Notes under the pieces: model-generated
The model's database searches: none
What the model was told of the DNA's origin: nothing
Seen by the model: only the letters and a program-made list of their open reading frames with translations
Assembly: GCA_025128025.1 (NCBI GenBank)
Contig: JAHLYR010000068.1
Location: 62,001-126,000, forward strand
Origin: Synechococcus sp. CS-1330
GTDB taxonomy: Bacteria; Cyanobacteriota; Cyanobacteriia; PCC-6307; Cyanobiaceae
Direction of reading: 5' to 3'
DNA length: 64,000 nucleotides
Part shown: positions 32,395 through 40,584 of the stretch, one piece after another
How positions within the stretch are numbered: position 1 is the first letter of the stretch
Layout: the number at the start of each line of letters is the position of its first letter
Program-made: the position numbers and the translations under genes

Positions 32395-32424
32395 CACAAC
32401 CTGGCCTTAACCCCTAAAAGCCCT
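32395..32424 (+). promoter_or_regulatory. Possible Pho box upstream of the SphX-like gene
   Basis: Three 8-mers with an 11-base period, CACAACCT, CTTAACCC and AAAGCCCT, stand 37-66 bases before the SphX-like start. The cyanobacterial Pho box is described as tandem (C/T)TTAACCT-type repeats separated by three bases and bound by the phosphate response regulator. The central repeat fits well, the first fairly and the third poorly. Confidence 0.4.
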
Positions 32425-32460
32425 CGGGTCGCCCAGAGTTCTGTTGTGGTTGTGACCGTT

Positions 32461-36290: not shown

Positions 36291-36342
36291 ACTGGCGGGG
36301 GGCGATCTTGCTATTAATGGATTGACCCCAAAGTCTTTTTCC

Positions 36343-37335
36343 ATGACCTTCGCAAAGAAGGCCCTGATTGTCGGCACCGTTGCAGCTATCGGTGCTGGCG
36401 CAACTTCAGCCGTCATCCCCGCGCTTGCCCAGGCCACCATCAATGGTGCCGGTGCAACCTTCCCTGCTGCTTTCTATCAGCGCGCCTTCGCTGGTGTGGC
36501 CAACAAGGTGCGCGTCAATTATCAGTCGGTTGGTTCCGGCTCGGGCGTGCGTCAGTATGTGGCCGGCACCGTTGAATTCGGTGCTACGGACGAACCAATC
36601 AAGGCAAGTGAAGCTGCCAAGGTAAAGCGTGGTGTGATTCAGTTTCCCGCTGTAGGCGGCACCATTGCGATCGCCTACAACAAGGCCGATTGCAAGAATC
36701 TAAAGTTGACCCAGCAGCAGGCTGTCGACATTTTCCTCGGCAAGATCAACACCTGGGATCAGCTCAAGTGCGGCAAGGGCAAGATCACAGTTGCCCACCG
36801 TTCAGATGGTTCCGGCACCACCTTCGCCTTCACTAACAGCCTCTCGGCCTTCTCCTCGGAGTGGAAGAGCAAGGTTGGTGAGGGTAAGAGCGTCAAGTGG
36901 CCAGTTGGCGTGGGTGGTAAGGGCAACGAAGGCGTCTCGGGTGTGATTCAGAACACCCCAGGTGCCATCGGCTACCTCAACCAGAGCTACGTCAAAGGTG
37001 CTATTAAGGCCGCTGCCCTGCAAAACAAGGCCGGCAAGTTCGTCATGCCCACAGAAGAGAGTGGCGCTGCTGCACTGAACAACATCAAGCTTGATTCGAT
37101 GCTGGCTGGGGAAGAGCCCAATCCCCCCGGTGCCAACAGCTACCCGATCTCGACCCTGACTTGGATTCTGGCCTACAAGACCGGCAACGGCGATAAGGCC
37201 CCCGCGATCCGCCAGGCGCTGATGTTCCTGCTAAGCCCTAAAGCCCAAGGTCAGGCTTCCAGCCTCGACTTCGTGCCACTTAAAGGCAGCATTCTCTCTG
37301 CGTCTAAGAAGGCCGTTGGGCAGATTGGCCGCTGA
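36343..37335 (+). CDS. pstS: Periplasmic phosphate-binding protein PstS
   Basis: High-affinity phosphate-binding protein of 330 residues. The signal peptide KKALIVGTVAAIGAGATSAVIPALAQ is followed by INGAGATFPAAFYQRAF. The phosphate loops VNYQSVGSGSGVRQY, FGATDEPIK and HRSDGSGTTFAFTN are all intact. A TTG at 36322 is in frame, but the ATG at 36343 gives the normal signal peptide. The cognate PstC, PstA and PstB genes are not adjacent. It is flanked by terminators on both sides and is thus a monocistronic unit, probably induced by phosphate starvation. Confidence 0.95.
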   Translation: MTFAKKALIVGTVAAIGAGATSAVIPALAQATINGAGATFPAAFYQRAFAGVANKVRVNYQSVGSGSGVRQYVAGTVEFGATDEPIKASEAAKVKRGVIQFPAVGGTIAIAYNKADCKNLKLTQQQAVDIFLGKINTWDQLKCGKGKITVAHRSDGSGTTFAFTNSLSAFSSEWKSKVGEGKSVKWPVGVGGKGNEGVSGVIQNTPGAIGYLNQSYVKGAIKAAALQNKAGKFVMPTEESGAAALNNIKLDSMLAGEEPNPPGANSYPISTLTWILAYKTGNGDKAPAIRQALMFLLSPKAQGQASSLDFVPLKGSILSASKKAVGQIGR

Positions 37336-37458: not shown

Positions 37459-37530
37459 CTCGACTACGTTCCCCTCAAGGGTCACACCCTGAAGCGTTCC
37501 AAGGCAGCTGTCGCCAAGATTTGCAGTTGA
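37459..37530 (+). pseudogene. Remnant of a second pstS: last 23 codons
   Basis: In the gap after the pstS terminator, 24 codons read LDYVPLKGHTLKRSKAAVAK and then ICS and a stop. The intact pstS ends with LDFVPLKGSILSASKKAVGQ, so this is the tail of another PstS gene. An in-frame TAG precedes it immediately and no start codon is available. It looks like the leftover of a tandem duplication or of an older copy, not a product of the neighbouring gene. Confidence 0.75.
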
Positions 37531-37577: not shown

Positions 37578-38768
37578 TTGCAGGCCCCTTTTCTTTTGCT
37601 TAGTGTTTACCTTTTGCCTCGGCGTTCAGCCGTCGTTGTTCTCGCCGGCCTTCTAGTTGGTTCTGCGACGCTGCCAACTCCCGTGCGGGCTGAGGTGGGA
37701 GTTAGCTCCCGGTCAATTTTGATTGGCCAATCAGCTGCTTTTAGTGGTCCTTCGGGCCAGCTTGGCAGTGAGTTTCGTGAAGGTGCCCATCAGGTATTTG
37801 ATCAAGTGAATGCTCAGGGGGGAGTTCATGGGCGTCAGATCGTGATGGTGTATCGAGATGATCGCTACGAGCCCGAGCTGGCGAAGCGCAACACTGAGCG
37901 CTTCATACGCTCCGATAAAGTTTTTGGTTTATTTGGTTATGTTGGTACGGCTACTGTTAAGGCCTCGTTACCCCTGATTAATCAATATCGAGTGCCGTTG
38001 GTGGCTCCACTCACTGGTGCCCAGTTAATCCGCCAACCGGTTAAACCCTTGGTGTTCAATATTCGGGCCAGTTATCATCAGGAAATTGAGGCCACAGTTC
38101 GATACCTGCTCCGCTACGGGCGCCGCTCCATTGCTGTGGTCTATCAAAATGATGCTTTTGGTCGCGATGGTTTAGAGGGAGCCCGCAAAGCCCTTGCGTC
38201 TCGGCGCTTACAGCCAGTAGTGGCTGTTACGGTTGAACGCAATTCCGCAGACACGCTTGAGCCAGCACGACGGGTTGCGCTGGCGCGTCCCGACGCTGTG
38301 CTTATAGTTTCGTCCTATGGCACCGTAGCTAGTTTCATTACGAATCTGCGTCGGCAAGGCAATAAGGCCCAGGTAATGAATGTTTCATTTGTAGGAAGTA
38401 ATGCACTTGCAAAGGCCCTACAGCCTGAATATCGACATGGTGTGGGCATAAGCCAGGTGGTGCCATTCCCTTGGAACCCTCGGGTTCCTGTTGTGCGTGA
38501 TTACCAAAATACAATCCGCCGTAATCGTAGTGACGCACCTTACGGCTTTTCGAGCCTTGAGGGGTATATCTCCGCAACAATGCTCGTTCGTGCCCTTCAG
38601 GCTGCAGGGCCCAAGCTCACCCGCGAGGGTTTTCTAGCAGCCATGGAGACCATGGGGCCGGTGGATTTGGGTGGCTTTCCGCTTAGCTTTAGTGCCAAGC
38701 AGCATCAAGGGAGTGACTTCGTTGAGCTCACATTTCTAGTGGGTCGTGATGGCGCATTTATCCACTGA
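37578..38768 (+). CDS. LivK-like periplasmic binding protein
   Basis: Type I periplasmic binding protein of about 396 residues, related to branched-chain amino acid receptors. The start is a TTG; a hydrophobic signal segment ends near PVRAEVG. It is followed by ILIGQSAAFSGPSGQLGSEF, the classic family start, FGYVGTATVKASLPL and VPLVAPLTGAQLIR. No permease or ATPase genes lie nearby. Instead it is followed after 5 bases by a DUF4239 membrane protein and then a PstS-like lipoprotein, so it may sense rather than transport. Base composition is more AT-rich than the genome average here. Confidence 0.85.
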   Translation: MQAPFLLLSVYLLPRRSAVVVLAGLLVGSATLPTPVRAEVGVSSRSILIGQSAAFSGPSGQLGSEFREGAHQVFDQVNAQGGVHGRQIVMVYRDDRYEPELAKRNTERFIRSDKVFGLFGYVGTATVKASLPLINQYRVPLVAPLTGAQLIRQPVKPLVFNIRASYHQEIEATVRYLLRYGRRSIAVVYQNDAFGRDGLEGARKALASRRLQPVVAVTVERNSADTLEPARRVALARPDAVLIVSSYGTVASFITNLRRQGNKAQVMNVSFVGSNALAKALQPEYRHGVGISQVVPFPWNPRVPVVRDYQNTIRRNRSDAPYGFSSLEGYISATMLVRALQAAGPKLTREGFLAAMETMGPVDLGGFPLSFSAKQHQGSDFVELTFLVGRDGAFIH

Positions 38769-38773
38769 TTGTT

Positions 38774-39589
38774 ATGTATTTTACTCCTGCTTTTGCAATG
38801 GTAGCCACCAGGGTTCTTGATGATATTCTGCTCAATACTGGGGTTCTAATACTCTACCTCGGATTTGTGTCTCTAACCTTTGTGGCTTTGCTTTTGGCTC
38901 GTTGGGTGAAAGCACGCGGTAATATTCAGATCCAGGCAGCTTTGCTGAGCCCCATGGGCTCACTTTATACGCTTACCACTGCTTTTTTATTGTCTAATGT
39001 AATTTTTCAGTTTACAAATCTGCGTGGTGCGCTCACGCAGGAAGTGGTAACTATTAATAAGCTTGGCGCGGTTATGTCTGTTCTGCCTGCTGATCAACGC
39101 ATCGAGGGAAGAAGGCTTCTTTATGATTACGGTGAGTCAATTGCTAGGGATGAAGCGCAGACGATGCGTAACGGTGTTCGTAGCGAAGTAACCCAAGAGT
39201 CGATTGATCGCCTCAGGGATTTCCTGTCTACTCGTGATGCCTCGCCTTCTAAATCGATAGAGGTAACGCCTGAATCTGTGAATTATTTCCGCAAGGCAAG
39301 TGATTTTGGTTTTGACCTTATTGATGCCCGCGAGCGCCGTCTTTCCCTCGCTGCGCCCCAGCCATTCCCAGTGCGGCTAGTTCTTGCAATCGGTGTGATG
39401 TATCTTGCACTCGCCTTGTTATCTTTTCTGGTGCAAAGTGGTGCTTGGACAACTCTATGGGTGGCTATCATATTGCTATTGTCTGCGCCCGTGCCGGCTG
39501 TTATGTTGTTTGTATATTCGAATCCGATTGCCAGCGGTTTGATCAATATCACGGCGACGCTGGAAGCCGTTTTGGCTCGGAGTCTTTGA
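38774..39589 (+). CDS. DUF4239 integral membrane protein
   Basis: Membrane protein of 271 residues. Two hydrophobic segments lie near the N-terminus (TGVLILYLGFVSLTFVALLL and a second near residue 70), then a 130-residue cytoplasmic or periplasmic helical domain with EVVTINKLGAVMSVLP. Two C-terminal helices follow. This layout matches DUF4239 (bestrophin-like) proteins of unknown role, some of which are thought to form channels. It is the middle gene of a tight operon: 5 bases after the LivK-like gene and 2 bases before the PstS-like lipoprotein gene. Context suggests a membrane partner for the two binding proteins. Confidence 0.75.
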   Translation: MYFTPAFAMVATRVLDDILLNTGVLILYLGFVSLTFVALLLARWVKARGNIQIQAALLSPMGSLYTLTTAFLLSNVIFQFTNLRGALTQEVVTINKLGAVMSVLPADQRIEGRRLLYDYGESIARDEAQTMRNGVRSEVTQESIDRLRDFLSTRDASPSKSIEVTPESVNYFRKASDFGFDLIDARERRLSLAAPQPFPVRLVLAIGVMYLALALLSFLVQSGAWTTLWVAIILLLSAPVPAVMLFVYSNPIASGLINITATLEAVLARSL

Positions 39590-39591
39590 AG

Positions 39592-40584
39592 ATGATACTT
39601 ATTCGTAGTTTTGCTGTCTGCCTTGCTGCCTTAGCTTGCGGCTGCGTTAAATCTACTTACGCAGACTTGGATGGCACTGCGGCAGTGTCCTTAGAGGGAA
39701 CAACTAGTGCTGAGACTGCCAATGCTTACTATCGCTGGTTTAATCAGCTCGCGGTGCGCAAGGGTGTAAATGCTGAGCTTAAACTGGATGATCGCGGCCC
39801 TAATGTTCCCCGCCTTGCTGCCGATAAAATCCAGTTTGCTGGTGTTGATATTTCTCCGTCAGTGCAAGAGTTGAAGGCCTTGCCTGCGGAGATCTTGGCT
39901 TTTCCTGTTACTGGGATGGCTATAGCGGTTGCCTATAACCAGCCAAAGTGTCAGTTGCAACTGACCCGGAACCAGCTGGTTCAATTATTCCTTGGCAAGA
40001 TTCGCAATTTTTCTCAGTTGGGTTGCCCGGATCAGCCTATTACTCTTCTATATCGGGGTGATGCCTCAGCCGCTACCGCTCATTTCACGGCTTCCCTCGC
40101 TGCCGTAAGTCCAGCATGGCGCGACGGCCTTGGGTCCGGAAGGGTTGTTTCCTGGCCCTCAGGGACTGCAGTGCGGGGAGCAGATGCCATGGCGAATGCC
40201 TTAGAAGCTACTCCTGGCAGCATTGGCTACCTTGAATCACCATTCTTGCGCTCACCTTTGCAGTCGGCAGCTCTTCAAAATCGTAAGGGCGAGTTTGTTC
40301 GTCCGGATATAAGGGCAGCAGCCCTTTCCTTGTCTAGCATTTCCCTTGACAATAGATTGTTAGGTTCTAGCCCAGATCCATCCAATGGTTATCCAATTGT
40401 CAATCTTAGTTGGATGCTTGTGCCCCGAAAAGGCTTGTCGGCTAACCTGTCGGCTATTAAAACAAGTCTTACATACATACTAAGTGGAGAGGGCCAGGAT
40501 GATTCTGAGCTATTGGGTTATGTGCGATTGCCTGCCGACTTGCGGCAAAAATCCTTAGGTCAGCTTGGTAGCCTTAAGCGTTAG
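39592..40584 (+). CDS. PstS-like lipoprotein
   Basis: Divergent PstS-family protein of 330 residues with a lipoprotein signal, SFAVCLAALACGC, where the lipobox LACGC gives the lipid-modified cysteine. Family loops are recognisable: the domain with IQFAGVDISPSVQELK, FLGKIRNFSQLGC, YRGDASAATAHF in the place of the phosphate loop RSDGSGTT, and GYPIVNLSWMLVPRK. The serine-rich phosphate loop is altered, so its ligand may not be phosphate. The frame is open upstream within the DUF4239 gene, but the ATG at 39592 gives the signal. It overlaps the convergent arsJ by 4 bases. Confidence 0.82.
   Translation: MILIRSFAVCLAALACGCVKSTYADLDGTAAVSLEGTTSAETANAYYRWFNQLAVRKGVNAELKLDDRGPNVPRLAADKIQFAGVDISPSVQELKALPAEILAFPVTGMAIAVAYNQPKCQLQLTRNQLVQLFLGKIRNFSQLGCPDQPITLLYRGDASAATAHFTASLAAVSPAWRDGLGSGRVVSWPSGTAVRGADAMANALEATPGSIGYLESPFLRSPLQSAALQNRKGEFVRPDIRAAALSLSSISLDNRLLGSSPDPSNGYPIVNLSWMLVPRKGLSANLSAIKTSLTYILSGEGQDDSELLGYVRLPADLRQKSLGQLGSLKR

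Follow-up and report, generated by a model that had tools for sequence, protein, structure and literature searches.

Bestrophins form homopentameric channels that include a cytosolic domain (PMC8496536), and Tasneem et al. (PMC549065) have described periplasmic binding proteins that are fused to bacterial pentameric ligand-gated channels (pLGICs) or share an operon with them. As a kind, binding-protein-linked bacterial channels are already known, by prediction. The locus described here lies in a 64,000-nucleotide stretch of DNA from Synechococcus sp. CS-1330, the whole of which is called the window. It resembles the pLGIC systems of PMC549065 in that a binding protein is tied genetically to a channel-like gene and not to an ABC transporter, and at other places in this genome, as in the family Cyanobiaceae, the same LivK subfamily is found with a pLGIC. 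It differs in that the partner is a DUF4239 membrane protein, the genes run in one direction and not divergently, and the operon additionally encodes a PstS-like lipoprotein; no Cys-loop type channel gene was found at the triple, whereas such genes are present beside the LivK paralogues.

Searching the open-access literature for the function of DUF4239, or for a bestrophin together with a periplasmic binding protein, we found nothing on such a system. The combination of binding protein and bestrophin therefore seems new. The conserved operon, which lacks an ABC transporter, suggests that periplasmic binding proteins switch an ion channel or sensor not described before.

The operon, its surroundings and its distribution

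The three-gene operon of the preliminary description, at 37578-40584, was confirmed: the open reading frames are collinear on the + strand with intergenic gaps of 5 and 2 bases. The first gene (37578..38768) encodes a LivK-like type I solute-binding protein (PF13458, Peripla_BP_6, 222 bits), the second (38774..39589) a DUF4239 membrane protein with four transmembrane (TM) segments, of which PF14023 ("Bestrophin-like") is the sole Pfam match (59.3 bits, cut-off 32), and the third (39592..40584) a PstS-like predicted lipoprotein, here called PstS3, which is a type II binding protein (PF12849, 67 bits) and scored 142.5 bits against TIGR00975, below the equivalog cut-off of 205. The two binding proteins belong to different classes, as had been proposed. 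Position 37578 is merely the first in-frame TTG, and the genuine start of the LivK-like gene may lie downstream of it; the N terminus of the product was judged by eye to carry a Sec-type signal sequence.

No ABC permease or ATPase gene adjoins the triple in the window, in agreement with the preliminary description, and the closest pstC, pstA and pstB that were found lie at a distance of about 79 kb on this contig. Upstream of the triple are an OprB-type porin gene, two further PstS-like genes and a CHAD gene, and downstream are convergent arsJ with its GAPDH gene, followed by arsR; arsJ and the PstS-like gene overlap by 4 bases at 40581-40584. Between the intact PstS gene at 36322-37335 and the triple, positions 37459-37530 hold an in-frame leftover of a PstS C terminus (LDYVPLKGHTLKRSKAAVAKICS, then a stop), as if a tandem pstS copy had been deleted, and at the M_surface_10_m2_119 locus a PstS-like C-terminal end likewise lies immediately upstream of the LivK gene. 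No match to a Pho box upstream of the LivK gene, and hence of the operon, exceeded those obtained with shuffled sequences. The sole Pho-box-like match in the window (32395-32413, 3 mismatches, a score reached by 8 of 100 shuffles) lies about 30 bases ahead of a PstS-like gene at 32446.

The window DUF4239 protein was found in 7 of 201 Cyanobiaceae genomes, and in a sample of 386 genomes from the phylum a protein of this type was present only in the genome of the window itself; none was found in plasmids or viral contigs. The seven loci and two more from a scan of named genomes give nine independent loci, all in Cyanobiaceae where placed. In addition to the window they come from Synechococcus sp. 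CS-1331, a La Plata metagenome-assembled genome (MAG), M_surface_10_m2_119, M_surface_10_m2_179, Cyanobium sp. Morenito 9A2, a Vulcanococcus MAG and two genomes designated G183 and G084. The LivK gene is directly upstream of the DUF4239 gene on the same strand in all nine, with a spacing, where measured, of -1 to 40 bases; the LivK copy of the M_surface_10_m2_119 MAG has a broken frame. A PstS-like gene follows in seven of the nine, in some with an overlap of 1-4 bases, and is missing from Morenito 9A2 and G084, whose loci diverge most (41% DUF4239 identity). Therefore, the core unit is the LivK-DUF4239 pair, to which the PstS-like gene has been added, and the triple, present as it is in other Cyanobiaceae, is not unique to the genome in which it was noticed. 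The arsJ-GAPDH genes adjoin four of the nine loci (the window genome, G183, CS-1331 and M_surface_10_m2_119), and so the arsenic neighbourhood is frequent, yet not required; the Vulcanococcus-type and Morenito-type loci have neither ars nor pho neighbours. Because the PF14023 members viewed elsewhere in the phylum have no LivK neighbour, the LivK pairing seems specific to the PF14023 subgroup of the window.

The membrane protein and its predicted likeness to bestrophins

The DUF4239 protein of the window has no match to the bestrophin Pfam families PF01062 and PF25539. An AlphaFold2 model built from this protein and six relatives had a moderate pLDDT of 65.5, and a Foldseek search of the PDB with it returned only Klebsiella bestrophins among the best 50 matches (best E 5e-4). 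The model aligned with the Klebsiella bestrophin KpBest over the full length at a TM-score of about 0.6-0.67, with a very low sequence identity of about 10-16%. Because this model was of moderate quality and low alignment depth, such that Foldseek could mislead, a second member, the 41% identical DUF4239 protein of Morenito 9A2, was also modelled (pLDDT 76.9), and its best 50 PDB matches were all bestrophins (KpBest and VCCN1; best E 0.012). The two runs are not fully independent, as they drew on one shared set of aligned sequences, and both Foldseek E-values are modest. That both models match bestrophins first argues that the window DUF4239 protein is probably a divergent bestrophin.

With sequence alone, the window DUF4239 group gave no PDB match and no hhalign match to a bestrophin. 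When wider PF14023 members were included, the profile aligned with a PF25539 bestrophin of another cyanobacterium over 227 columns (E 1.4e-5, probability 80%), and the stretch SNPIASG of the DUF4239 profile, all that stands for the C-terminal NPFG-like motif, fell on the ENPFG region. The sequence link needs these wider members, and therefore the assignment of the fold rests on structure prediction.

The likeness to bestrophins (KpBest; PF25539 and PF01062) thus consists of a predicted full-length fold with four TM helices and a central helical domain. Unlike bestrophins, the DUF4239 protein is tied to binding proteins, has no recognisable acidic calcium clasp and possibly has the opposite orientation. 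Neither the residues of the hydrophobic neck of the pore (IIF/IFF) nor the calcium clasp could be assigned, and no acidic cluster was seen. The TM1-TM2 loop of the DUF4239 group contains 3-4 Lys or Arg residues and the central domain is net negative; on these charge counts, the positive-inside rule would place the loop in the cytoplasm and the central domain in the periplasm, opposite to known bestrophins, whereas homology predicts the reverse, a cytosolic central domain. The preliminary description had called this a membrane protein of unknown function and the membrane component of the system; it is the membrane component, but its fold is probably that of a bestrophin according to the two models. 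A DUF family would in this way gain a concrete structural identity, a predicted bestrophin fold, and a partner.

The LivK subfamily and the PstS-like lipoprotein

The LivK protein was found at 35 places in 27 of the 201 Cyanobiaceae genomes. At 7 of these its partner is the DUF4239 gene on the same strand, and at 28 it is a divergent gene on the opposite strand, of about 410-460 codons, with weak matches to PF02932. The profile of this divergent partner matched ELIC over both the ligand-binding and the TM domains (E 8e-11), a match that identifies the partner, at the level of sequence profiles, as a pLGIC homologue. The genome of the window has two such divergent pairs on another contig (C47; 11903-14306 and 16045-18439 of the excerpt), in which the pLGIC homologues carry about 60-80 residues ahead of the ligand-binding domain and, at the N terminus, one extra TM segment. 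Outside Cyanobiaceae, four distant cyanobacterial LivK relatives adjoin transducer genes, namely one MCP gene, one PilJ-HAMP gene and two Cache-HAMP-PAS-SpoIIE genes (L106 3839-8027, L107 1766-3776, L108 6684-10006 and L109 6905-10256). The partners of this subfamily are exclusively of the channel or transducer kind: no ABC genes were found beside the LivK family at the 39 places examined (35 in Cyanobiaceae and 4 distant), and the pairing with ABC genes that the preliminary description had named as contrary to its reading was not seen for LivK at these places.

In a phylogenetic tree, the DUF4239-paired LivK proteins form one group with moderate support (86/91) among the pLGIC-paired ones, and the LivK and UrtA of the ABC type in this genome are placed well away from the subfamily. 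The window LivK protein has the type I fold of LivK and LivJ; it scored 46 bits against the NCBIfam Liv model, for which the cut-off is 477. Relative to the LivJ sequence and its pocket numbering, the subfamily differs in having Ser at E226 in all members, Thr at S79 in most and Gly at T102. It differs further in its channel or transducer partners and in an RxSYxxE motif that is common to channel-paired and transducer-paired members; a similar stretch is shared by the best PDB sequence matches, 3lop and 4kv7, with Lys for Arg in 3lop. Therefore, from the partners, the tree position, the pocket and the motif, it is most likely that the subfamily consists of sensor-type binding proteins that serve different membrane machines and are not of the ABC type. 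This defines the subfamily as an evident sensor for interchangeable membrane machines, not for transport. Its pairing with pLGIC homologues in many Cyanobiaceae also supplies native candidate regulators for bacterial pLGICs, the ligands of which are, to our knowledge, mostly unknown.

The N terminus of the PstS-like protein fits a lipobox (ALACGC, judged by eye) and its orthologues have a lipobox-like Cys as well, which bears out its earlier description as a lipoprotein, by prediction. It is like PstS and SphX in having a PBP_like_2 domain, in its closest PDB entries (7xg8 and 7xg7) and in the phosphate ligands that its orthologues keep, and unlike them in being a predicted lipoprotein with a score below the family cut-off, no adjacent PstCAB, ligands that are partly lost in this genome, and a distinct clade: all the triple-borne PstS-like proteins group together in the tree with support of 100/100, and the top matches to one of them among the 201 genomes were the other triple-borne copies. 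The best-ranked phage PstS proteins were about 37-39% identical to PstS3 and no closer than the paralogues of the host itself, and a cyanophage origin was rejected.

At the eight phosphate-ligand positions of E. coli PstS, the window protein has the changes T10A, F11E, S38R, G140A and T141A and keeps three of the eight (D56, R135 and S139). These changes are confined to the window genome and its close relative G183, whereas in five orthologues (CS-1331, La Plata, M_surface_10_m2_119, M_surface_10_m2_179 and Vulcanococcus) 7-8 of the 8 ligands are identical or conservatively replaced. The retention of these residues in the orthologues and their change here indicate that PstS3 began as a phosphate-type binder and that this ligand was probably lost in the window lineage. 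The changed phosphate loop noted earlier is real in the window copy and in G183 but does not extend to the system, and as judged from the aligned residues it is a recent lineage-specific loss and no design feature. Between the window and G183, dN/dS was 0.04 for DUF4239, 0.10 for LivK and 0.22 for the PstS-like gene, which is under weaker yet present purifying selection than the other two. Decay of PstS3 to a pseudogene was ruled out by the value of 0.22 and the open frame.

A possible mechanism and its alternatives

The reading that we prefer, at about even confidence, is that the LivK-like protein binds a ligand and acts on the DUF4239 protein as a bestrophin-like channel or sensor, and that the PstS-like lipoprotein is anchored and serves as a second binding subunit. 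The LivK-like protein would capture a small molecule in the periplasm and, bearing this ligand, would dock on the DUF4239 protein, probably a pentamer with the predicted divergent bestrophin fold; we infer that this contact would open or close an ion path or relay a signal. In most lineages a membrane-held PstS-like lipoprotein would have been gained as a second binding subunit, ancestrally phosphate-type and degenerate here. A bolder form of this reading, which we advance tentatively and hold to be somewhat improbable, is a ligand-gated channel made of a bestrophin-fold pore with separate soluble LivK-type and lipid-anchored PstS-type binding proteins, possibly inverted so that the vestibule is periplasmic, and belonging to a sensor family that swaps pLGIC, bestrophin, chemoreceptor and SpoIIE-type phosphatase partners. 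If true, this would give bacteria an equivalent of those receptors in which a type I binding-protein domain and an ion channel are joined, here with the parts still on separate genes, and the gating of a pore by a binding protein would be open to study by mixing purified components.

The surroundings of the locus invite a different explanation, in which phosphate or arsenate would be sensed by LivK and PstS3, and DUF4239 would transmit the signal to the ars and pho genes nearby. The arsJ-GAPDH genes beside four of the nine loci, a region crowded with PstS-type proteins and the retention of most phosphate ligands in the five orthologues fit this explanation, and there is a precedent in the AioX family, periplasmic binding proteins that act as sensors of arsenic oxyanions (PMC5908839). 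However, such neighbours are missing at the Vulcanococcus-type and Morenito-type loci, no Pho-box-like site above chance lies upstream of LivK, and five of the eight phosphate ligands are gone from PstS3 in precisely the two loci richest in pho and ars genes, so that we regard this explanation as unlikely. The preliminary description had suggested an undescribed sensing or uptake system, and is supported as to a conserved operon without ABC genes; we do not favour uptake, since channels and transducers are the company that the LivK subfamily keeps and the shape of DUF4239 is probably that of a bestrophin. In one form of uptake, both binding proteins would pass substrate to DUF4239 as a permease of a non-ABC secondary transporter, much as TRAP or TTT systems do, and the presence of a binding protein and a small membrane protein in one operon without an ATPase fits this form. 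DUF4239 resembles bestrophins, not the DctQM or TctAB families, the partners of the LivK subfamily elsewhere are channels and transducers, and it would be odd for one permease to use two binding proteins of different fold; we consider this form quite improbable.

It could also be that both are orphan binding proteins for distant ABC importers, PstS3 for PstCAB and LivK for a Liv-type importer, with DUF4239 functionally unrelated. The contig of the window does have PstCAB, and contig C65 has a Liv-type importer, but the latter comes with its own binding protein gene, the product of which is placed in the tree at a great distance from the LivK of the window; the LivK-DUF4239 linkage is invariant over nine loci and none of the 39 LivK family places is beside ABC genes, which leaves this explanation with little probability. 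PstS3 alone may act with the distant PstCAB transporter.

The preferred reading, a binding protein acting on a channel or sensor, concerns the triple; another pairing of a binding protein with a channel was observed on contig C65 of the same genome (9215-12394 of the excerpt L018), where the genes of an SBP_bac_8 lipoprotein-like protein and of an MscS-like channel share 4 bases, and the pair adjoins a PF14023-like open reading frame with a TAG in frame.
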